A stretch of DNA of 55,698 nucleotides from a virus, in IMG/VR virus record IMGVR_UViG_3300009706_000010, positions 1 to 55,698 of that record. The stretch is one strand, 5' to 3'. The notes beneath the pieces were generated by a model. It was not told the origin of the DNA. It worked only from the letters and a program-made list of their open reading frames with translations, and made no database searches. This document shows, in pieces, positions 29,719 to 47,832 of this stretch; positions within the stretch are counted from its first letter, which is position 1, and the number at the start of each line of letters is the position of its first letter. A program made the position numbers and the translations under genes.

Positions 29719-29757
29719 TTCTTGACATGTCTGTTAATTGATATTATCATTCAGGGC
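29711..29757 (+). promoter_or_regulatory. Early promoter-operator 1 (leaderless)
   Basis: GAAAATAG, then TTGACA at 29722, a 17-base spacer and TATCAT at 29745. The -10 lies inside the palindrome TGATA-T-TATCA (29739-29749). An ATG follows 7 bases after the -10, so the transcript should begin at or next to that ATG. Confidence 0.88.
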
Positions 29758-32471: not shown

Positions 32472-32864
32472 ATGGAGACGACGACGACGGCCACAGCGAA
32501 TCAGGGAGACACGCCAATGACCATCCAAGTTCGATTCGACTCGCTCGCTATCCACACCGGCTTCATGGCAATCAACGGCCCACGGGAAGTGCAATACATC
32601 AAGGTCGGCGGTCGGCATGCCACGCCGGTCGGCGGCGTCGGAGTCGCGGCATTCATGGGCGGCGAGATGGTCACACCGGAAGCGCCCGGCGTCGTCGGCT
32701 CGGCCACGAGCCCGGTCAATCTGGCTAAAGCGCTCGTATCGCAGACCGGCACGGAGACTTGCTCGGCCTGCCTTCACACTATCGTCGCCGGGCTCCCGAT
32801 GACGCAGAGCGGCAGCGGCGACTATTACCACATGACGGCTGACGACTGCGGGGCGGCTCGATGA
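32472..32864 (+). CDS. Early protein, 'RFDSLAI' domain
   Basis: A 130-residue protein (METTTTATANQGDTP...). A second start at 32517 (MTIQVRFDSL) is preceded by AGGGAG. The domain VRFDSLAIHTGFMAINGPRE, YIKVGGRHAT, GGVGVAAF is paralogous to that in the 32000 protein. The C-terminal part has CSACLHTIV and a final Cys, perhaps a metal site. Its stop overlaps the ligase start by 4 bases. Confidence 0.7.
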   Translation: METTTTATANQGDTPMTIQVRFDSLAIHTGFMAINGPREVQYIKVGGRHATPVGGVGVAAFMGGEMVTPEAPGVVGSATSPVNLAKALVSQTGTETCSACLHTIVAGLPMTQSGSGDYYHMTADDCGAAR

Positions 32865-33949
32865 CACGGGAATTTCCCTCGAAGTCATCGAGCGCAATCC
32901 ACACGATGACCTTCACGGCGGCAGGCGCGATTGACTGGTGCACTTGCCCGGCATGGCGGAATCAGAAGCCGAACAAGCCTCGCGACTGCCCACACGCCCG
33001 TCTCGTGCGAGCGGAGGGGCAGACGGGCCAGACATCGCCGGAGCCGGTGAAAGCCTCACAGGAGGCGAGCAGCGCAGCCGACGAGCCGGTTCGCGGCCTG
33101 CCTCCGGCGCCAATGCTCGCGTCTGCGATGACGACGCGGGTAGAGGGCGCCGAGTTTGACGCCACGTTCGCTCACGGCTGGACGATGGAGCAGAAGATGG
33201 ACGGCCACCGGATTACGGTCGTCATCGAGGGCGCGGATGTGTGGGCCTACGCTCGTCCACGGGGCGACAAGCCACCGACATCGGTGCAGATGCCCGGCAT
33301 GATGATCGAAGCGCTTCAGGCGCTCGGCACTGGCGTCTACGACGGCGAGTTCGTCACGCCGGGCGGAATTTCGAGCGACGTATCGCGGGTGCTGGCGGCG
33401 ATTCGGAACGGGCAGTCGGACGGCTCGGATCTGATGTTCATCGCTTGGGATGTCGTCTCACTCGATGGCGCCTCCGTCGCCTGCTCCTACAGCACACGGC
33501 GGCGTGAGATGCTGCTGGACCGGCTGCGCCGTCTCCCGGCAGGCCAGCGCAGCGTGTCCACGGTCGAGTCAGTCACGCCGACATGGGCCGCGATCGAGGA
33601 AATCTGGCGGCAGGGCGGTGAGGGCGCGATTCTGAAGCGTTCGGCGGCGACGTATCAGGCCGGGCGCCGGTCACCGGACTGGCTGAAGGTGAAAGAGGAA
33701 GGCGCGGCGGTCGGCAGAATCACCGGATTCAAGCCGGGATCGTTCGGGCCACACTCGGTCACTTGCCTCACGCTGGAGAGCGGTATCGAGACGACGGTGA
33801 AGACGAAGAACAAGGCCACGCTGGCTGACATCGCGAAGGACGAAACGCGCTACATCGGCGCACGGCTGGTGATCTCCCACAAAGGACTGTTGAAGGGCGG
33901 CAAGCCGCGACACCCTGTTTTTGATCATCTAGCAGGAGAGGGGGAGTAA
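32861..33949 (+). CDS. ATP-dependent DNA ligase with N-terminal SWIM-type zinc finger
   Basis: A 362-residue protein. Residues 27-45 (WCTCPAW...DCPHARLV: Cys27, Cys29, Cys43, His45) form a SWIM-type CxCxnCxH finger, then a linker. The ligase adenylation motif is EQKMDGHR with Lys112 as the expected AMP-linked residue, followed by VYDGEFV, LMFIAWDVV, GGEGAILKR and SPDWLKVK (motifs III to V), then an OB-fold (AVGRITGFKPG...). It should seal nicks during replication or recombination. The SWIM finger probably targets DNA and is an unusual addition. Confidence 0.9.
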   Translation: MTREFPSKSSSAIHTMTFTAAGAIDWCTCPAWRNQKPNKPRDCPHARLVRAEGQTGQTSPEPVKASQEASSAADEPVRGLPPAPMLASAMTTRVEGAEFDATFAHGWTMEQKMDGHRITVVIEGADVWAYARPRGDKPPTSVQMPGMMIEALQALGTGVYDGEFVTPGGISSDVSRVLAAIRNGQSDGSDLMFIAWDVVSLDGASVACSYSTRRREMLLDRLRRLPAGQRSVSTVESVTPTWAAIEEIWRQGGEGAILKRSAATYQAGRRSPDWLKVKEEGAAVGRITGFKPGSFGPHSVTCLTLESGIETTVKTKNKATLADIAKDETRYIGARLVISHKGLLKGGKPRHPVFDHLAGEGE

Positions 33950-35779: not shown

Positions 35780-36024
35780 ACCGATACGCAGCGACGGGCC
35801 GTTCGGATCAAGAGGTGCAGCGAACCTTCTCCTCCAAGCGCGAGGCGAACGACTACGCGAGCCGTGTGAGATTTCAAGGTGGCCGGGTGCTGATTCACGA
35901 CTTGCAGACCGGGGTGATTATCCGCGACACCGGGAAGCCGCACGGGCAGGTATGGGCCTTCCCGTCTCGGAAGGGTGAGCCGTCACCTTTACCGAAAATA
36001 GTTCTTGACTCTCACCTGGTTTGA
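35776..36024 (+). CDS. Small early protein running into promoter 7
   Basis: An 82-residue protein (MNRYAATGRSDQEVQRTFSSKREANDYASRV...). FSSKREANDYASRV and GKPHGQVWAFP suggest a small alpha/beta fold. The reading frame ends inside the operator of promoter 7, so its last ten residues are encoded by promoter DNA. Confidence 0.58.
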   Translation: MNRYAATGRSDQEVQRTFSSKREANDYASRVRFQGGRVLIHDLQTGVIIRDTGKPHGQVWAFPSRKGEPSPLPKIVLDSHLV

Positions 36025-36040
36025 TATTATCATTCTGGAC
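35993..36040 (+). promoter_or_regulatory. Early promoter-operator 7 (leaderless)
   Basis: GAAAATAG, TTGACT at 36005, 17-base spacer, TATCAT at 36028 within TGATA-T-TATCA, ATG 7 bases later. It drives the small gene at 36041 and the AAA+ ATPase. Confidence 0.9.
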
Positions 36041-36253
36041 ATGGCGAATGCGACGACACTGACGGAGCGCACAGAGGTCGCGGGAATCCAAGTCGAAGTG
36101 AGAGAGATGGATTTCCTGCTCGCGATGTTCAAGCGACTCGGCGGGACCGCTGACGGCGCAACGGACAAAAGCATCGACCTGCACTTTCCGACTGAGCGAG
36201 CAGCCAACGAGTTCAAGGCTGCCGCTGTCACACGCGGCGCAATTTTTGATTAG
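36041..36253 (+). CDS. Small early protein before AAA+ ATPase
   Basis: A 70-residue protein starting leaderless at promoter 7 (MANATTLTERTEVAGIQVEVREMDFLLAMFKRLGG..., ending RAANEFKAAAVTRGAIFD). It resembles a small regulatory alpha/beta protein; no family recognised. Its last codons are followed by the strong AGGAGG SD of the AAA+ gene. Confidence 0.65.
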   Translation: MANATTLTERTEVAGIQVEVREMDFLLAMFKRLGGTADGATDKSIDLHFPTERAANEFKAAAVTRGAIFD

Positions 36254-36261
36254 GAGGACCG

Positions 36262-37779
36262 ATGACGACGAAAACGACCACGGTGAGCGGCATGGTGAAG
36301 GCATTCAAGGCGGCACGGCGCTGCTCTTGCCCGATCGTCGCGATCGAGACTCCGGACCCGGCAGCCACGATCGATGAGATTGTGGCCGTCGTCAAGGGCG
36401 CGGCGGTCGCGCAATGGGATCTGGTGCGAGGGCTGCGCGGTGTCAACAAGGCGGCACAGTCGGCGCTTGTAGATGTCAACCCGGATGCGACGGTGAGCCC
36501 GGTGGAGGCGCTGGCGGCGCTGGCTGGCAAGGCGCCGGAGGATAGCGTCACCTTCATGATGAACGCGCACCATCATCTTGCGGACCCGGGGGTGGCGCAG
36601 GCGGTGTGGAACCTCCGCGATGAGTTCAAGGGCAACGGGCGGATGCTGGTCTTGCTTGGTCCGGCCTTCCAACTTCCCTCCGAACTGGCTGGCGATGTCG
36701 TCGTGCTTGACGAGCCGCTGCCGACACGCGATGACCTGAGCGCGATCGTCACGAAGCAATACGAAAACGGCGAGGTCGCGCAACCGGATGACTCCACGCG
36801 GTCGGCGGCGCTCGATGCGCTGGTGGGCCTACCGTATTTCACGGCGGAACAGGTCGTCGCGATGTCGCTGACACCTACCGGGGTGGATGTCGATGCGCTG
36901 TGGGATCGCAAGCGAAAGGCGATCGAGAACACCGAAGGGCTGCGGGTGTGGCGAGCGCAGCCGGGCGACACGACGCTGGACGAGCTTCACGGCATCGATA
37001 ACGTGATTGGCTTCCTGCGGCGCCTGATTGCCGCGAACGCCTTCGGGGCGATTGTCTTCATCGATGAGGGTGACAAGGCGTTCGCCGGGGGGATGTCAGA
37101 CCACACCGGCGACTCGGGGGTGAGCAAAGATCAGGTGGGAACGGTCCTGTCCTACGTCGAGGATACGAAGTCACTCGGGGTGCTGCTGGCAGGCATGACG
37201 GGCGCCGGAAAAACACAGCTTGCGAAGGCGGTGGGGCAGGCGTCAGGCAAGCCACTCATCATGTTCGATATGGCAGGCATGAAGGGCGGGACGGTCGGTG
37301 AGAGCGAACGGGCGATTCGGGCGGCGCTGAAGGTCGTCACGGCTACCGCTGAGGGCCGGGTGCTTTTCATCATGACCGCGAACAAGACCACGCAGTTCTC
37401 GCCGGAGCTTAACCGGCGCTTCCCTGACCAATTCTTTTTCGACACGCTGAGTGAAGAGGGGCGCGAAGCCTGCTGGACCGTCTACGCGGGAAAGTGCAAG
37501 CTGACACCGCTTCAGGCGTCACGGCCCACGGGATTCGATGAGGGCTGGACGGGCGCTGAAATCAAACGGGCCTGCGAACGGGCGGCGCTTTTCAACCAGA
37601 CAATCGAGGAGGCGGCACGATACATCGTCCCGGCGGCTGTCTCGGCGAAGGCCACGATAGACAACCTGCGGCGCGAAGCTGCCGGGCGCTTCCTCTCGGC
37701 GAGTGACCCGGGGCTGTATCAACCGGCGGTCGCGGACTCACCGGCGGAAGCCACGCGGAAGTTCAGGACGGAGGACTGA
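36262..37779 (+). CDS. Ycf46-like AAA+ ATPase, Walker B before Walker A
   Basis: A 505-residue ATPase. Residues about 95-155 (VTFMMNAHHHLADPGVAQAV..., PSELAGDVVVLDEPLPTRDDL) form the degenerate N-terminal domain of Ycf46-type AAA proteins. The catalytic domain has an unexpected order: AIVFIDEGDKAF with the GDSG loop (Walker B, Asp268-Glu269) comes first, Walker A GMTGAGKT (311-318) second, then GGTVGESERAIRAAL, sensor-1 TANK (Asn374) and LNRRF (arginine finger). In normal family members Walker B lies between GESE and TAN. DUF1257 and DUF2997 genes, its usual companions, lie about 2.5 kb downstream. The C-terminus is RKFRTED. Confidence 0.88.
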   Translation: MTTKTTTVSGMVKAFKAARRCSCPIVAIETPDPAATIDEIVAVVKGAAVAQWDLVRGLRGVNKAAQSALVDVNPDATVSPVEALAALAGKAPEDSVTFMMNAHHHLADPGVAQAVWNLRDEFKGNGRMLVLLGPAFQLPSELAGDVVVLDEPLPTRDDLSAIVTKQYENGEVAQPDDSTRSAALDALVGLPYFTAEQVVAMSLTPTGVDVDALWDRKRKAIENTEGLRVWRAQPGDTTLDELHGIDNVIGFLRRLIAANAFGAIVFIDEGDKAFAGGMSDHTGDSGVSKDQVGTVLSYVEDTKSLGVLLAGMTGAGKTQLAKAVGQASGKPLIMFDMAGMKGGTVGESERAIRAALKVVTATAEGRVLFIMTANKTTQFSPELNRRFPDQFFFDTLSEEGREACWTVYAGKCKLTPLQASRPTGFDEGWTGAEIKRACERAALFNQTIEEAARYIVPAAVSAKATIDNLRREAAGRFLSASDPGLYQPAVADSPAEATRKFRTED

Positions 37780-37976
37780 TGGAAATCAAGTCACGGAGGG
37801 GGTTCGACGCGGCGGTATATCGGCAGACCGAACTTGAGGATAGCGTGGACGGCGATGTGGATGCGCTGTCGGCTGAAGAACAAGTGGAATTCGAGGCGAT
37901 CGGGGATGCGATTATCGCGTGGGAAGACAAGTGCGAAGAACGCGGCGGCAAACTGAACCGCTACGGGGGCGACTGA
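37779..37976 (+). CDS. Small acidic protein
   Basis: A 65-residue acidic protein (TELEDSVDGDVDALSAEEQVEFEAIGDAIIAWEDKCEE). Its ATG overlaps the ATPase stop by one base, so it is probably made with the ATPase. No family recognised. Confidence 0.6.
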   Translation: MEIKSRRGFDAAVYRQTELEDSVDGDVDALSAEEQVEFEAIGDAIIAWEDKCEERGGKLNRYGGD

Positions 37977-38389
37977 TGGCAAGCGCAACGGCGATTCGGC
38001 AGGGATGGGCAGATCACACCGAACTGACACCTTCGGACGGTGGGAAGTCGTGGATGGTGCAGAAGAACGTCAACGGGGCGTTCCGCTGCTCCTGCCCGGC
38101 CTACATCTTCAGCAAGGCACCGAAGGGGTGCAAGCATGTCGCCCGGGTGAAGTATCTGGAGGAGGAGAACAGGACACTTGAGCCCTACGTTGAGGAGGCA
38201 TCGAGCATCCTCACGGAGATGCTTCAGCATGTCGGACTAAACCGTTCAGAGTTCGTCGGCCCGGAGTTGCGAAACCAGATGGGCGCGGTGCTTGCGCTTC
38301 GGCTTCAGGCGCTCAGCACGATCGCGGTCACGGTCGCTTCGCCGACGGCTGCCACACGCGGGGTGCGGAAGATTCGGTTCGATGACTGA
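37976..38389 (+). CDS. SWIM-type zinc-finger protein
   Basis: A 137-residue protein. GKSWMVQKNVNGAFRCSCPAYIFSKAPKGCKHVARV is a SWIM finger (CxCxnCxH, residues about 37-54), a DNA- or protein-binding module. The C-terminal half is helical and ends RKIRFDD, similar to the tails of the AAA+ and 41625 proteins. It is coupled by one-base overlap. Confidence 0.78.
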   Translation: MASATAIRQGWADHTELTPSDGGKSWMVQKNVNGAFRCSCPAYIFSKAPKGCKHVARVKYLEEENRTLEPYVEEASSILTEMLQHVGLNRSEFVGPELRNQMGAVLALRLQALSTIAVTVASPTAATRGVRKIRFDD

Positions 38390-40273: not shown

Positions 40274-40726
40274 ATGTCACACGTAGCAGCGGTATCACTC
40301 TACGTCACGGACCTCGATGCGCTCGAAGCGGTCGCGGACCGTCTCGGCTTCAAACTGATGCGCGGCCAGAAAACTTGGGCGTGGTATGGCCGGGCGGTCG
40401 GTGAGAGCGAAGCGGCGGCACAGGGCCACTCGGCGAAGGACTTCGGCAAGGGCGTTCACGCGCTTCGACTGAAGGATCACGGTCCCGGCGATTACGAGAT
40501 CGGTCTGGTGGCCCGGCTGGACGGCAAGCCGGGGTTCGAACTGCTCCACGACTCATGGGGTATGCACGGGCGGAAGCTGACGGCTGCCGCTGGTGCCGGG
40601 CTCGGGACGCTCAAACGCGAACTGGCGGCGGAGGTATCCACGCGGATCTTGCAGCGACAGGGCTATCGAGTCTCACGGATTATTCAGCCGGACGGCGGCA
40701 TCAAACTTCGAGGTGCACGAGCATGA
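40274..40726 (+). CDS. DUF1257 (Ycf35-like) protein
   Basis: A 150-residue protein starting MSHVAAVSLYVTDLDALEAVADRLGFKL, with YEIGLVARLDGKPGFELLHDSWG and the C-terminal GYRVSRIIQPDGGIKLRG, matching DUF1257, whose plastid and cyanobacterial members are called Ycf35. Molecular function is not established. It is followed by DUF2997 and belongs with the Ycf46-like ATPase encoded upstream, an association known from cyanobacteria and other bacteria. Confidence 0.85.
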   Translation: MSHVAAVSLYVTDLDALEAVADRLGFKLMRGQKTWAWYGRAVGESEAAAQGHSAKDFGKGVHALRLKDHGPGDYEIGLVARLDGKPGFELLHDSWGMHGRKLTAAAGAGLGTLKRELAAEVSTRILQRQGYRVSRIIQPDGGIKLRGARA

Positions 40727-40908
40727 AGGAAATCACCGTCAACATTTCGGAAGCTGGCGATGTGGAGGTATCCACGAAGGGGTTCGCTGGCAAAGCCTGT
40801 CAGGACGCCACGAAGCAGCTAGAGGCGGCGCTAGGCGCCACGACAGCGGACACGCCGACTGCTGAGATGATGAAGCGCAACACGGCTCACCTGAGGGCAG
40901 GACAGTGA
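40723..40908 (+). CDS. DUF2997 protein
   Basis: A 61-residue protein, MKEITVNISEAGDVEVSTKGFAGKACQDATKQLEAALG, which is the DUF2997 pattern: a small beta-alpha protein nearly always next to DUF1257 and a Ycf46-like ATPase. It overlaps the neighbours by 4 bases on both sides. Function unknown; a complex with DUF1257 is plausible. Confidence 0.87.
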   Translation: MKEITVNISEAGDVEVSTKGFAGKACQDATKQLEAALGATTADTPTAEMMKRNTAHLRAGQ

Positions 40909-41165
40909 CCCACGATGTCATCATCTCGCCCACCGGTGAGATCAGCTTCATTTATGCCGATGGGCTGGCGGCGCTGGTGGATGCGGGAGAAGGGACGATC
41001 ACCCGGGCGAGCCACGTCGAACCGGCTTCGGCGTATGGGCTGTCTGGCACCGGATGGGTGGCCGATATGGCGCCAAGCGCGGGGCCGCTGCTAGGGCCGT
41101 TCGAGACACGCGGGGAAGCGCTCACCGCTGAGGTCGCATGGCTTCAAGAGAATCGGGGGCTCTGA
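40905..41165 (+). CDS. Conserved small phage protein (RASHVEP family)
   Basis: An 86-residue protein (GTG start). The central RASHVEP, WVADMAPSAGPLLGPFETRGEALTAEVAWL is a recurrent motif set in small phage proteins, often near DUF2997. It appears to be a single alpha/beta domain; no activity is known. Confidence 0.72.
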   Translation: MTHDVIISPTGEISFIYADGLAALVDAGEGTITRASHVEPASAYGLSGTGWVADMAPSAGPLLGPFETRGEALTAEVAWLQENRGL

Positions 41166-41598: not shown

Positions 41599-41625
41599 AT
41601 GCGGCAATCACGCCGCGAGGGCTAA
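41599..41625 (+). CDS. Leader peptide mini-ORF
   Basis: ATG at 41599 encodes MRQSRREG and stops at TAA whose last base starts the next gene (TAATG). A small hairpin (GCGGC-aatcac-GCCGC) lies within it. It may couple or modulate translation of the downstream gene. Coding function is unproven. Confidence 0.4.
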   Translation: MRQSRREG

Positions 41626-42545
41626 TGAAGATGACGACGACAAACGCAGCGGAGCAGGGGAACCTTATCGCGACCAAAACGATTTGCCTGTGTTTGGAGC
41701 GCGGGAAGTTCGGGAACAGCAAAAAGGCGGGGCTGAGCGCGGTCACGGTGCGAGCGGACAAGACTCGGCTTCGGATGTCGAAGCAGTTGATTGATTCGCC
41801 GGAACTGACGAATATTTCGAAACTGGACACGGAGGTATCGATCTACCTCTCGGCGCTGGCGTCACCGTCACTGATGAAGGGCGGTATCTACATGGTGCCG
41901 ATCGCCGGGGTATCGGCGCTAGAGGCGGCGTTGAAGGGCTTCCAGACTCGGCGGCAAGCCTTGGTGGAAATCGCGGTGGAGAAATTCGACCAACGGGTGC
42001 AGGAAACGATCGAGCCACTCGGCGATGTCTACGACGCCAGCGACTACCCCACGGCTGAGGCGTTCAGGGACACCTTCAAGTTCTCTTGGCGCTATGTCAC
42101 CTTTGACACGCCGCAGCGCTTGAAGGCGATTAGCTCGGAACTGTTCGAGTCGGAGCGGGAGAAACACGCCGCGCACTTGTCGTCGGTCGCTGACTCCTGC
42201 CGGGATGCGATGCGAACCGGGCTCGCGGATCTGGTCAAGCATCTGGTGGACAAGCTGACGCCGGGCGCGGACGGCAAAAAGAAGGTGTTCAGCAAGTCGG
42301 CGGTGGAAAGCATGAACGAGTTTCTTGCGTCCTTCGACATGCGGAACGTGACTGAGGACAGCGAACTGTCGGCGCTGGTCGTCAGGGCTCGGGCGGCAAT
42401 CTCCGGGGTGGATGCGCCTATGCTTCGGACGAACGACGAAGTTCGGACGACGGTCTTGGATCAGTTCTCGGGGCTGGCGGATTCGCTCGAAGTCTTGACG
42501 GCGCAACGCGGCGATCGGAAAATCGAATTCGAGACGGAGGACTGA
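41625..42545 (+). CDS. Early protein of recombination/ATPase region (possible DUF3150-like)
   Basis: A 306-residue helical protein. It opens MKMTTTNAAEQGN, the shared N-terminal pattern, here with no later SD-start, showing that the pattern is translated. FQTRRQALVEIAVEKFDQRVQE, YPTAEAFRDTFKFSWRYVTFDTP and LVKHLVDKLTPGADGKKKVFSKSAVESMNEFLASF resemble phage DUF3150-type proteins that accompany AAA+ ATPases; this is by eye. The tail is DRKIEFETED, like that of the ATPase. Confidence 0.72.
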   Translation: MKMTTTNAAEQGNLIATKTICLCLERGKFGNSKKAGLSAVTVRADKTRLRMSKQLIDSPELTNISKLDTEVSIYLSALASPSLMKGGIYMVPIAGVSALEAALKGFQTRRQALVEIAVEKFDQRVQETIEPLGDVYDASDYPTAEAFRDTFKFSWRYVTFDTPQRLKAISSELFESEREKHAAHLSSVADSCRDAMRTGLADLVKHLVDKLTPGADGKKKVFSKSAVESMNEFLASFDMRNVTEDSELSALVVRARAAISGVDAPMLRTNDEVRTTVLDQFSGLADSLEVLTAQRGDRKIEFETED

Positions 42546-43135: not shown

Positions 43136-44293
43136 GTGTCAAGTGAACTGGCGCGGGTAGGCGGCAGCGACCCTGTTGGCCTTGTCCGACCACCAGAGGA
43201 AACCTTGTCGTCGGCTGGAGCGGCGGCAACGGCGCTGATGGGCATCATCAGTAAGAAGCCGAAGAAACTCATGTTCAACGGAGAGCAGTATCTTGAGGTG
43301 GACGATTGGGAAACCATCGGCGCCTTCCACGGATGCACGGCTGATGTCGTGTGGTCGAGGGAAATCACGCTTGAGATTGCGGACAAGGACGGGAACGCGA
43401 TTCGAGGGTGGGAAGCACGGGCGGTCTTACTCGACCGGACGGGCCGCGAATTGACCCACGCCGATGCCATGTGCCTGAGCGATGAAGCCAAGTGGAGCGA
43501 GCGCCCAAAGTATGCGTGGGTCTATGTCCTGAAGGACGGCACGACGAGCGAGGAGGACCCGGGCGCTGCGAATATCGAATGGGTGCCGAACCCGAACAAG
43601 CCGGATGGCGTCATGCCGAAAAAAGTGCGGCAGCTTGTCGGCTCGGAGGCTCCACCGGAGTTCCAAATGCGTTCCATGGCGCAGACACGGGCGGTCGCGA
43701 AGGCGCACAGCAACGTCTTCCGATGGGTGGCTCGGCTCGCTGGATGCGCCGGGACACCGGCGGATGAATTGCCGGACATCGAAACCGTGGACCGGGAGAC
43801 GGGAGAGGTCACGACAAAGGCACCGGCGGCTGCTCGGCCTGCCGCTGCTCGGCCTGCGGCGCAACCAGCGAAGCAATGCCCTGAGGTTCGCGATGGTCAA
43901 CAGTGCAGAAGGGTAGAGGGCCACACGAAGACGGAGCATGTTTTCGATAAGGTGGCAGACACAGCGGTGCCTCCACCAGCGGTGCCTCCACCAGCGGCTC
44001 CGGCTCATACGGTGGCGCAGCCTCCGGTCACGGTCAAGGACATCACGAGCCGAAGCGGAACGAAGGCCGGGAAGCCGTGGACAGTCTGGACGGTTGTCTT
44101 TTCAGACAAGGTGCAGACCGTCGGGCCTGATGCTCAGACAACAGACCGGGCCGGGACGTTCTCGGAAACGATCGCCGGGGCAGCCGACAATGCCCGGGCG
44201 GCTGGCGTGAACTGCTATCCGAAGATCACCTCGGAGAAGAACGGACGCGGGTATGTTGACCACAACATAACCGCGCTTCCGACGGATAGCTAA
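43136..44293 (+). CDS. Putative phage recombination/annealing-type protein
   Basis: A 385-residue protein from a GTG. The N-terminal domain contains KKLMFNGEQYLEVDDWETIGAFHG and RSMAQTRAVAKAHSNVFRWVARLAG, motifs recurrent in proteins encoded next to phage RecB-like nucleases. A Pro/Ala-rich linker (AAARPAAARPAAQPA, PPPAVPPPAAPA) follows a small Cys motif, and the C-terminal ~90 residues (VTVKDITSRSGTKAGKPWTV...) look like an OB-fold. Single-strand DNA binding or annealing is inferred. Confidence 0.65.
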   Translation: MSSELARVGGSDPVGLVRPPEETLSSAGAAATALMGIISKKPKKLMFNGEQYLEVDDWETIGAFHGCTADVVWSREITLEIADKDGNAIRGWEARAVLLDRTGRELTHADAMCLSDEAKWSERPKYAWVYVLKDGTTSEEDPGAANIEWVPNPNKPDGVMPKKVRQLVGSEAPPEFQMRSMAQTRAVAKAHSNVFRWVARLAGCAGTPADELPDIETVDRETGEVTTKAPAAARPAAARPAAQPAKQCPEVRDGQQCRRVEGHTKTEHVFDKVADTAVPPPAVPPPAAPAHTVAQPPVTVKDITSRSGTKAGKPWTVWTVVFSDKVQTVGPDAQTTDRAGTFSETIAGAADNARAAGVNCYPKITSEKNGRGYVDHNITALPTDS

Positions 44294-44877
44294 TGCTCGG
44301 AGTGACCCGCACTCTAGTCGCAGCAGGCCGGATTGAAGGCCGGTTCTTCTCGGAGGAAGCGGCGGAGCGCGGGTCACGACTGCATGCCTACACGGATGAC
44401 ATCGACACGGGGCGCGAACTGCGAGGGATGCCGAACGACTGGTGGGGATACATCGAGGCGTATCAAACCTTCCTCGCTGTTGTCCGGCCCGTCTACGGCG
44501 AGCCGGACTGGTGGGCTACGATTCTGAACGTCACGCCGGGGTATGGGAGAATTGCGACGGACCCGGGCGCCACGAGTTGTATCGAGCGATTCGTTCAGTC
44601 GGAGGCGCTGAACCTGCGAGGGAGGATTGACAGGATTTGCAAGCGGATGTTCACGAGCCCGGCGATTCTGGACTTCAAGTTCGGCGCTGAGCAGGAGTGG
44701 CACGGCGAGCAACTCGCACTCTACAACCGCATCTGTCCGGTCGGCGCTCGATGGGCGGTGTATTTCAGGAAGGACGGAACCTACAGGGTCAAGCAGTATC
44801 GAGGTATGACGGACGATGCACGAGCGATGGCGGATCTGGCGAAGGTGCGGAAACAGGAGATGACGAACAATGGCTGA
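44293..44877 (+). CDS. RecB/Cas4-type PD-(D/E)XK exonuclease
   Basis: A 194-residue nuclease. RLHAY (His31), LRGRIDRI (Asp113), AILDFKFG (Asp127, Lys129) and GEQLALYNR (Gln140) are the ordered motifs of RecB/Cas4-like exonucleases. It probably resects ends for recombination with the upstream annealing-type protein. Start and stop are coupled (TAATG). Confidence 0.85.
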   Translation: MLGVTRTLVAAGRIEGRFFSEEAAERGSRLHAYTDDIDTGRELRGMPNDWWGYIEAYQTFLAVVRPVYGEPDWWATILNVTPGYGRIATDPGATSCIERFVQSEALNLRGRIDRICKRMFTSPAILDFKFGAEQEWHGEQLALYNRICPVGARWAVYFRKDGTYRVKQYRGMTDDARAMADLAKVRKQEMTNNG

Positions 44878-45634
44878 ATCGGTTTCACTTGCAAAATTTG
44901 AATCTGACCCGGAGGACGGGCAGACGATCGAGGCGGCGAACACTCCGATCGTGTCGGCGGAGGACTACGAACGCGGATGGGCGATCGAACATGCGCTGGC
45001 AGCGCTCGAAGATCAGATCACGAAGCACTATCAAGGGACGAAGGACAGCCTGAACGCTCTGGTCGCGGCGTTCAGGGAGATGGCGAACGGGGATCTGGTC
45101 CCGATCAGGGAAGCGCGGAAGCTGCTCCGGGCGAATCTCGGGGCGTGGAAGGACGCAGCGGACGCAGCGGACGCACTGGAGACGGCGCGTGTGGAGGCGG
45201 AAGCGGCGGAGGTGCAGCGGCAGCTTCACGAGAGCACGGTGGCAGCGGTGGAAGCTATCGCTGCGGCTGAGCCGGACCCGATCGTGTCGGAGGCATTCAA
45301 GCAGGAGGCGGTGGCAATCGCAGCAGCACCGGCGGCGCGACGGGCCACGGCTGCTGTCACGAGCGCACCGAAGATCGCAGGCGGCGGGTTCCGGCTCGAA
45401 TGGTCGGCGGAGATCGTCGATGTGAAAAGCCTGATCCGTGCATGGCTCAACGGTAAGTGTTTCCTCGATGAAGGCGGGTTGATTGAAGGGCTGCAACCTC
45501 AGATGAACGCGCAGGCCGACACGCTGAAGAACAATCTCCCGCAGGCATTCCCGGGGACGGCGGTGCATTCCAAGAACGTACCGGTCACGCGGCGCCGGGC
45601 TCGCAAGGCGGCTCCGAAGGCGGCAAAAGCGTGA
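44870..45634 (+). CDS. Helical DNA-metabolism accessory protein
   Basis: A 254-residue protein: a long coiled-coil region (residues about 30-125, rich in Ala/Glu), then FRLEWSAEIVDVKSLIRAWLNG and a strongly basic end (TRRRARKAAPKAAKA). It lies between nuclease and primase-helicase, as similar helical proteins do in other phages. A DNA-binding or recombination accessory role is inferred. Confidence 0.65.
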   Translation: MAESVSLAKFESDPEDGQTIEAANTPIVSAEDYERGWAIEHALAALEDQITKHYQGTKDSLNALVAAFREMANGDLVPIREARKLLRANLGAWKDAADAADALETARVEAEAAEVQRQLHESTVAAVEAIAAAEPDPIVSEAFKQEAVAIAAAPAARRATAAVTSAPKIAGGGFRLEWSAEIVDVKSLIRAWLNGKCFLDEGGLIEGLQPQMNAQADTLKNNLPQAFPGTAVHSKNVPVTRRRARKAAPKAAKA

Positions 45635-47832
45635 GCCTCGCAGTCACGCGAGTCTGCGAGCGGCTGACGGGTGTCCAAGGCTCAGGCGACAACCTGAAGG
45701 CGAAGTGTCCGGCGCATGAGGACCGGGTGGCGAGTCTGTCGATCGGTGAGGGCAGCGGTGGCCGGGTGCTCCTGCATTGCCACGCTGGCTGCGCTCCGAC
45801 TGACATCGTGGCCGCTGCCGGGCTGACCTTCACGGATCTGTTCCCACCGAATGACGGCGCGACTGCGGTGCCGGACAGGGGCGAGGAAGCCTACTCTTAC
45901 ACTGATGCTGAGGGAGTGCCGGTCTATCAAGTAGTGAGGATGGCCGGGAAGGACTTCCGGCAACGGCGCCCGGATGGTTCCGGCGGGTGGATTTGGAAGA
46001 TGACCGGCGTGAAGCGTGTGCCTTTCCGGCTACCTGAGCTTCAGGGTGTCGAAACGGTCTTCGTCGTAGAGGGGGAGAAGGACTCGAACCGGCTCTGGTC
46101 GCACAGTATCCCTGCCACGACGAATTGCGGCGGCGCCGGGAAGTGGGGCGCGTCGGAGACAAAGGCGCTGAAGGCGGCAGGCTGCACACGAGTCGTCGTG
46201 CTGCCGGACAACGACCGCCCGGGGCTCAGCCATGCCGAGAACGTCGCACAGCGCTGCCGGGGCGCTGGCATGGCTGCAACGGTCATCCTCCTGCCCGGGC
46301 TCGACAGTCACGGAGATGTCTCGGACTGGCTGAGTGCCGGTAACTCGCCCGGGGATCTGCTGACGCTGGTCGGCGCGACACCCTACATCGTGCCTCCGGC
46401 TGGAGCGGTGGCGGCGCTGCCGGAGCTACCGGCACCGGCGGCAACCATCTTCGATGACCCGGCGAATGCCCATCGTGACCCGGCGACGGAAGCCGCGTTC
46501 GGGGAACGCTTCGCGGAGGAACATTCTCACATCTTCCGATTCGACATCCGGCGCAAGGCGTGGCTCAAGTATGAGGAGCCTCAGTGGAAGCTGGACCCGG
46601 GGAAGGTCGTTCGACGGGCGGCGCTCGACTACGTGCGAGCCCGGCAGGTTGAGGCGGTCACGCTGGTAGACATGGACAAGCGGCGGCGCCTGCTGAAGTT
46701 CGGCATCGCGTCCGAAACCAAGGCGGCGCTCGACCACATCGTATCGATCGCTGAGTGGCAGCCCGGGATGATGGACAGCGGCGAGGGATGGAACGCTGAC
46801 CCATGGCTGCTCGGTGTCCCGAACGGTGTCGTCGATCTGAGAACTGGCAACCTCCGGGCCGGGCATGCCGACGACCGTATCACGATGGTGGCCGGGGTGC
46901 CGTATGACGCTGAGGCTCAGTGTCCGCGCTGGTGGCGCTTCCTGATGGAAGTGTTCGAGAATGACACGGAGCTTGTAGACTTCGCGTGGAAACTGGCAGG
47001 CTACATGCTGACGGGGCGCACGACGGAGCAGATCATCACCATCTGCTACGGCCCGGGCGGCAACGGGAAGTCGCGGTTCCTCAGCGTCTTGAAAGCGGCA
47101 CTCGGCGACTACGGCGCCACGCTGCCCTTCTCCAGCTTGACCCATGTGCCGTCAGGAAATGAACCATCCAACGATCTCGCGGCGCTCGAAGGGAAGCGCT
47201 TGATCACGGCAAGCGAAATCAACGAAGGCGCTCGGCTGAACGAGGCTCGTCTGAAAAGCCTGACGGGTGAGGATGCGATCAGTGCTCGCTTCCTTTACGG
47301 GGAACACTTCACCTTCATGCCGGTCGGCAAGTTGATATTCAGCGTGAATCACAAGCCGGTCGTCAAGGATGACAGCCACGGGTTCTGGCGGCGCGTCCGG
47401 CTCTTGCCCTTCATGCACAAGTTTGAGGGCGCTGAACGCGATCTCGGGCTGGCGGAGAAGCTTACGGCTGAGATGCCCGGAATACTGGCGTGGGCGGTCC
47501 AAGGCTGCACGGCATGGCAGGAGGCAGGGGCTTTGCCTATCCCTGAGGCGATACGTGTCGCCACAAGCGAATACGAGGCCGACAGCGACCAATTAGCGGA
47601 GTTCATCCAGACTCGATGCGAGGTCCACGCCGATGAGACGACGCCGGGCGCGGCACTCTACAAGTCGTATCAGGAATGGTGCGATGCGAACAGGCTCGGG
47701 AAGTATGACCGGCTGACATCGAACGCTTTCGGGCGGCTGCTCGGCTCGAAATTCCGGAAAAAGCACACGGCGGGAGGCTCGGTTTACATAGGATTGGCTG
47801 TTAAGACGGGGATTCCGGGGCTCCGGGCATGA
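45631..47832 (+). CDS. Primase-helicase (P4/D5 type)
   Basis: A 733-residue replication protein. An N-terminal CHC2-like zinc finger (KCPAHED, Cys26/His29; LHCHAGC, Cys50/Cys54), a TOPRIM-like domain (FVVEGEKD, Glu148; VVLPDNDRPG, Asp193), then a D5-type SF3 helicase with Walker A CYGPGGNGKS (474-481) and LIFSVNHKPV, and a C-terminal winged-helix region (YQEWCDANRLGKYDRLT...). It should melt the origin, unwind and prime. The GTG start overlaps the previous stop by 4 bases. Confidence 0.92.
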   Translation: MSLAVTRVCERLTGVQGSGDNLKAKCPAHEDRVASLSIGEGSGGRVLLHCHAGCAPTDIVAAAGLTFTDLFPPNDGATAVPDRGEEAYSYTDAEGVPVYQVVRMAGKDFRQRRPDGSGGWIWKMTGVKRVPFRLPELQGVETVFVVEGEKDSNRLWSHSIPATTNCGGAGKWGASETKALKAAGCTRVVVLPDNDRPGLSHAENVAQRCRGAGMAATVILLPGLDSHGDVSDWLSAGNSPGDLLTLVGATPYIVPPAGAVAALPELPAPAATIFDDPANAHRDPATEAAFGERFAEEHSHIFRFDIRRKAWLKYEEPQWKLDPGKVVRRAALDYVRARQVEAVTLVDMDKRRRLLKFGIASETKAALDHIVSIAEWQPGMMDSGEGWNADPWLLGVPNGVVDLRTGNLRAGHADDRITMVAGVPYDAEAQCPRWWRFLMEVFENDTELVDFAWKLAGYMLTGRTTEQIITICYGPGGNGKSRFLSVLKAALGDYGATLPFSSLTHVPSGNEPSNDLAALEGKRLITASEINEGARLNEARLKSLTGEDAISARFLYGEHFTFMPVGKLIFSVNHKPVVKDDSHGFWRRVRLLPFMHKFEGAERDLGLAEKLTAEMPGILAWAVQGCTAWQEAGALPIPEAIRVATSEYEADSDQLAEFIQTRCEVHADETTPGAALYKSYQEWCDANRLGKYDRLTSNAFGRLLGSKFRKKHTAGGSVYIGLAVKTGIPGLRA

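Follow-up and report, generated by a model that had tools for sequence, protein, structure and literature searches.

Can an AAA+ ATPase domain carry its Walker B motif ahead of its Walker A motif and still be a conserved, probably working enzyme? This question is raised by one gene in a 55,698-nucleotide virus record (IMGVR_UViG_3300009706_000010, hereafter the window; coordinates written with two dots are on its + strand). Few molecular machines have been studied as much as AAA+ proteins, whose linear motif order is embodied in the profiles that annotate them. The ORF at 36262..37779, whose ATG is preceded by a Shine-Dalgarno sequence (GGAGGA, 36253..36258), translates into a 505-residue tandem AAA+ protein related to Ycf46 (relatives include L003, L014, L015 and L094-L125, among others). 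We consider it highly likely that this protein belongs to a group of Ycf46-derived phage remodelling ATPases that arose by a single ancestral swap, and that it is probably a working motor with a rewired topology, its activity being predicted.

From the N- to the C-terminus, the second ATPase domain begins with a displaced β3-α3 block (residues 259-304; 37036..37173), in which the Walker B/β3-α3 elements (263-301) include Walker B Ile267-Asp268-Glu269 (37060..37068) and GDSG (283-286). This is followed by the β1-α1-β2-α2 block (305-364; 37174..37353), with Walker A GMTGAGKT (311-318; 37192..37215), which fits the GxxxxGK[ST] pattern, and GESE (346-349; 37297..37308) at the start of α2, where VG-x-S is conserved. 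The β4 strand with the sensor-1 Asn374 (TANK; 37360..37386) comes directly after α2, as the original prediction had said of the GESE helix and the TANK strand. The domain ends with a putative arginine finger, RRF (385-387; 37414..37422), whose role is assigned from its position, and a C-terminal helical lid with a WTGAEI motif (398-480; 37453..37701), which AlphaFold2 models as helices and which matches AAA_lid_3 weakly. At the sequence level, the AAA+ signature of hhhhDE, sensor-1 Asn and Arg finger is present as IVFIDE, TAN and RRF, conserved in 32 aligned members. That prediction had also listed every motif as present, and its numbering (IDE 267-269, TGDSG 282-286, GMTGAGKT 311-318, GESE 346-349, TANK 372-375) is confirmed.

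We built three block HMMs from 73 conventional Ycf46-like proteins: block A (β1-α1-β2-α2, including Walker A and GES; segA), block B (β3-α3, including Walker B and GDSG; segB) and block C (β4 with sensor 1 onward; segC). Each matched the window protein once, block B at 263-298 (E 4e-11), block A at 306-361 (E 4e-17) and block C at 367-441 (E 1e-8). This gives B-A-C in place of A-B-C, far above chance, which bears out the claim that Walker B precedes Walker A. The protein departs from the Ycf46-like order of Walker A, GESE, Walker B/GDSG and TAN, and both it and its family depart from the general AAA+ order of β1 (Walker A), β2, β3 (Walker B) and β4 (sensor 1). The Pfam AAA match (PF00004, E 7e-12) is confined to residues 307-370, a warning that order-dependent profiles catch only part of such domains. 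A narrowed gapped DNA pattern for Walker B followed by Walker A had no match within the window.

Since the virus record that makes up the window is metagenomic, a chimeric contig produced by assembly or sequencing could in principle mimic this order, but there is virtually no chance that it does here. Two IMG/VR contigs from other samples are 99.95% identical to the window over stretches of 10.5 and 11.5 kb that run through the gene, so that three assemblies agree, and the cultured, completely sequenced Tunturiibacter phage Tunturi_3 (PP885686) encodes a protein, gp103, that is 37% identical and shows this order too. The order is also shared by contigs in Acidobacteriota genome bins (45% and 43% identity) and by 32 further viral contigs (35-51% identity). 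An artefact is already refuted because independent genomes carry the same order, and the assembly error named in advance as fatal to the prediction fails against these independent assemblies and the cultured phage. The paper on Tunturi_3 mentions no ATPase in its main text.

The block order is B-A-C in 35 of the 36 members of our first set, the remaining one having no segB match. Viral scans with the window protein alone or with a two-sequence alignment returned two contigs at 100% and nothing else. A second scan gave a wider set of viral and Acidobacteriota loci, in which 88 ORFs are B-A-C (70 distinct sequences of the ATPase domain, D2), 25 are A-B-C and two lack a block-B match; none of the 88 B-A-C and 25 A-B-C ORFs has a second block B. 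Of 396 genomes sampled from Acidobacteriota, the phylum to which the Bryobacterales bin belongs, three carry the permuted gene. Its occurrence is thus sporadic, as expected for phages or prophages, and these carriers may be phage contigs binned into MAGs. One permuted ATPase, L185 (IMGVR_UViG_3300031772_000003), has an intein-like insert in the sensor-1 strand, right before the catalytic Cys-Asn (IATC-LTGDTLVERNDG...HTFVAAGLVVHN-CNN).

Phylogenetic trees were inferred only from parts untouched by the swap, namely the N-terminal domain (D1) and the sensor-1-to-lid region. All permuted proteins group together in a single clade (bootstrap/SH-aLRT 100/100; SH-aLRT 100 in two further trees), and the tree demands one order change. 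They are therefore a single-origin family rather than a one-off, a result beyond the original prediction. Their nearest relatives have the conventional order (with support between 86 and 100 across taxon sets) and are phage-borne (L186, L187, L189, L190, L192, L193, L195, L196, L200), together with two Planctomycetaceae contigs (L016, L017), for which a pattern-based scan found no viral relatives. The D1 and lid tree with its conventional phage sisters places the parts outside the swapped blocks within the Ycf46-like ancestry.

Comparison with a conventional sister locates the breakpoints. The sister reads ...RPRG/VLLLSPPGCGKS...IDAMAP/CVLFVDEIEKALAG...TWLNDHKS/DVFFVGTCN, and the permuted protein reads ...RPR/SIVFIDEIEKALAG...TFMQDKNATG/MLFIGPPGAAKT...VVEAVSQ/NRALFIATCN, where slashes mark the block borders. 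Judged from this alignment, the change is an exact swap of adjacent blocks, [β1-α1-β2-α2][β3-α3] to [β3-α3][β1-α1-β2-α2]. The earlier suggestion of a strand-helix transposition rather than decay holds, given this clean swap relative to the sisters, the retained catalytic residues and purifying selection (see below). All three breakpoints lie in loops preceding strands. Such a swap would result if part of the region were duplicated in tandem and each block then lost one of its two copies; no B-A-B-C intermediate was found with the block HMMs among the 88 B-A-C and 25 A-B-C ORFs of the wider set.

AlphaFold2 models of the full-length protein (32 sequences) reached a pLDDT of 87.5 and a pTM of 0.78, and those of D2 alone a pLDDT of 89.3 and a pTM of 0.86. 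The displaced block is modelled as a strand at 263-267 and helices at 270-278 and 289-301; the strand is confident and hydrogen-bonded (pLDDT about 94 around it), and D2 is one compact unit. Foldseek matched the full-length model to the tandem AAA proteins Rix7, NVL and Cdc48, and the best matches in a viral library were phage proteins annotated as Ycf46 (TM 0.60-0.69). From the models and these matches, we therefore take the N-terminal α/β domain (residues 8-235; 36283..36966) for what is probably a first AAA+ domain (D1) that has degenerated, with normal element order but no Walker A, and assign residues 244-480 to the permuted second domain. When D2 was aligned sequentially with Foldseek, TM scores were 0.4-0.66 with high rmsd, which is expected under permutation but is not proof of it.

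Covariation provides a further view of the arrangement. In the permuted set, the pore loop 2/α3 region couples most strongly with pore loop 1/α2 in a parallel register, a post hoc result for which 0/105 other windows scored as high (Neff 58). The conventional set lacks an equal regional enrichment between pore loop 2/α3 and pore loop 1/α2, and the covariation maps of the two sets correlate at 0.033, with 5.8% of nulls as high. The coupling in the permuted set hints weakly that α3 lies beside α2. Taken together with the short linkers, the compact domain and the invariance of the catalytic residues, covariation suggests that strand 3 may occupy its usual slot between strands 2 and 4. The confident strand, the compact domain and covariation thus bear indirectly on the structural outcome named in advance as fatal to the prediction, in which residues 263-300 lie outside the strand-3 position.

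A permutation alters which loops are tethered, and β3-α3 could instead be swapped into a neighbouring subunit or placed elsewhere in the sheet, giving a topology truly unlike AAA+. This is very unlikely. The linkers α3-β1 (302-304) and α2-β4 (364-366) are about three residues each, which leaves too little chain for exchange between subunits; D2 reaches its pTM of 0.86 as a monomer, and α3 couples to α2 in a parallel register. Somewhat less far-fetched but still improbable is a reading in which the swap destroyed the active site, and the permuted, catalytically dead protein persists as an AAA scaffold that binds nucleotide or has a structural role. Its case is the active site itself: the third Walker A glycine (residue 316) is Ala or Ser in half of the clade (G/A/S = 34/29/7 in the 70 distinct permuted sequences), Walker B is EE rather than DE in two of the 70 (DE in 68), and the Walker B region of one member, L113, is degenerate (VLIDEFGD). 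Since this glycine is present in 104/104 conventional sequences, its relaxation is specific to the permuted clade, and some of the 36/70 members with Ala or Ser could handle nucleotide differently. However, RavA/MoxR ATPases whose P-loop is GxxGxAKS are active, so Ala or Ser variants need not be inactive. Among the 32 aligned members, moreover, Walker A Lys317, Walker B Glu269, sensor-1 Asn374 and the finger Arg386 are invariant and Asp268 is nearly so. Purifying selection in the permuted clade is strong, the displaced block included: between pairs of related sequences, dN/dS is 0.04-0.14 for the whole gene and 0-0.21 for the displaced block.

A working motor with swapped blocks, the reading that we prefer, can be pictured as follows. 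One ancestral swap in the catalytic domain would have placed β3-α3 ahead of β1-α1-β2-α2. In the AAA+ topology, loops preceding strands lie at the edge of the Rossmann-like sheet opposite the nucleotide site; with the breakpoints at that edge, the strands can keep the canonical three-dimensional order 5-1-4-3-2. Walker B, at the strand-3 tip, would then lie next to both Walker A and sensor 1. ATP hydrolysis is probably retained, carried out by D2 in a putative ring whose D1 is inactive, and a client would be pulled through pore loops 1 and 2. The ATPase would act with the DUF1257, DUF2997 and DUF3150-like products encoded nearby. The swap itself might not be neutral, a tentative and rather unlikely proposal in which it re-wires the coupling of nucleotide state to pore movement: pore loop 2/α3 would be tethered directly to the P-loop strand and strand 4 freed from α3. 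If true, this would explain why the third Walker A glycine, otherwise universal, is optional in the permuted clade only. A natural clade of single origin indicates that the AAA+ fold tolerates internal permutation under strong selection, and nature here provides a test of which loop connections the motor stroke depends on.

How does this clade relate to known systems? The conventional Ycf46-like proteins of phages and bacteria share its tandem architecture, GES, sensor-1 Asn, WTGAEI lid, and DUF1257 and DUF2997 neighbours, whereas the permuted clade has Walker B/α3 ahead of Walker A, often has Ala or Ser as the third Walker A glycine, and has a shorter Arg-finger segment (RRF as against RAERFDG). 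The tandem classic AAA proteins Cdc48/p97, NVL and Rix7 resemble the window protein in the full-length fold, in having two AAA domains and, by sequence, in the region from Walker A to GES; they differ in their conventional order and low sequence identity, and the window protein has no visible p97-type N-domain. Changed motif order in P-loop NTPases is familiar from RsgA/YjeQ, circularly permuted GTPases with the order G4-G5-G1-G2-G3 and moved termini. Here, in contrast, the termini are unchanged, only an internal segment is permuted, and the enzyme is an AAA+ ATPase rather than a GTPase. The anti-phage ATPase IteA (NCBIfam NF042959) aligns with the C-terminal half (344-442), but its 30.1 bits are far under the 510-bit cut-off and the match spans only α2 to the lid, and we rejected membership in that family; a literature search on IteA found no relevant paper. 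Searches of solved structures gave no full-length sequence match, the best stretches covering the Walker A block only. The original prediction knew of no described AAA+ protein with Walker B first, and our search of the open-access literature found no permuted AAA+ domain described. We rate the permuted clade as a new topology within AAA+, not as a new superfamily.

The ATPase gene lies in a DNA-metabolism region, flanked on one side by a gene for DNA ligase (32861-33949) and on the other by genes for an exonuclease (44293-44877) and a primase/helicase (45631-47832). Four genes recur beside it across the family, encoding a DUF1257 (Ycf35-like) protein (40274..40726), a DUF2997 protein (40723..40908; PF11211, E 1e-13; 24/36 loci), a conserved 86-residue protein of an unnamed family (40905..41165; 18/36 loci) and a 306-residue distant relative of DUF3150 (41625..42545; 31/36 loci). 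The DUF1257 assignment comes from family HMM links and aligned homologues, six of seven matching PF06868, the window copy itself having no Pfam match; for the DUF3150-like protein, PF11348 matches the best homologue with E 1e-5 and the window copy with E 0.08. The start of the DUF2997 gene overlaps the stop of the DUF1257 gene (40274-40908).

The conventional-order sister phages carry the same module (DUF1257, DUF2997, a DUF3150-like protein and a small protein of the 86-residue family), and conventional Rhizobium and Aeromonas phages carry the DUF1257-DUF2997 pair. A DUF1257 (Ycf35) and DUF2997 neighbourhood is characteristic of Ycf46-like ATPases, and the window gene has it. On the simplest view, the permuted enzyme descends from this module's conventional motor, with its topology re-wired, and its job is therefore probably unchanged. 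Ycf46-like ATPases have the DUF1257-DUF2997 pair beside them in bacteria as well as in phages that infect several different hosts. The cyanobacterial genes for DUF2997 and ycf35 (DUF1257) cluster with the ferredoxin gene fed7 (PMC4284462), which is the sole functional lead that we found for the module. Searches of solved structures with the DUF1257-like and DUF3150-like partners gave no match, and a literature search on DUF3150 found no relevant paper.

Two smaller features of the region deserve mention. A small protein encoded at 37961-38389 shows a SWIM-like C-x-C...C-x-H pattern (CSCPAYIFSKAPKGCKH) and has homologues in 10/36 related loci, with no Pfam match. Eight near-identical + strand elements (GAAAATAgTTcTTGAC...TTGATATTATCATTCtGGacATGG), found by a repeat script at 29738, 31980, 32452, 35233, 36021, 38851, 39186 and 52357, contain TTGACT-N17-TATCAT with an ATG about 7 nt on. 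They look like a phage promoter family producing nearly leaderless mRNAs of small genes, and the closest copy upstream of the ATPase is a putative sigma70-type promoter at 36005..36033.
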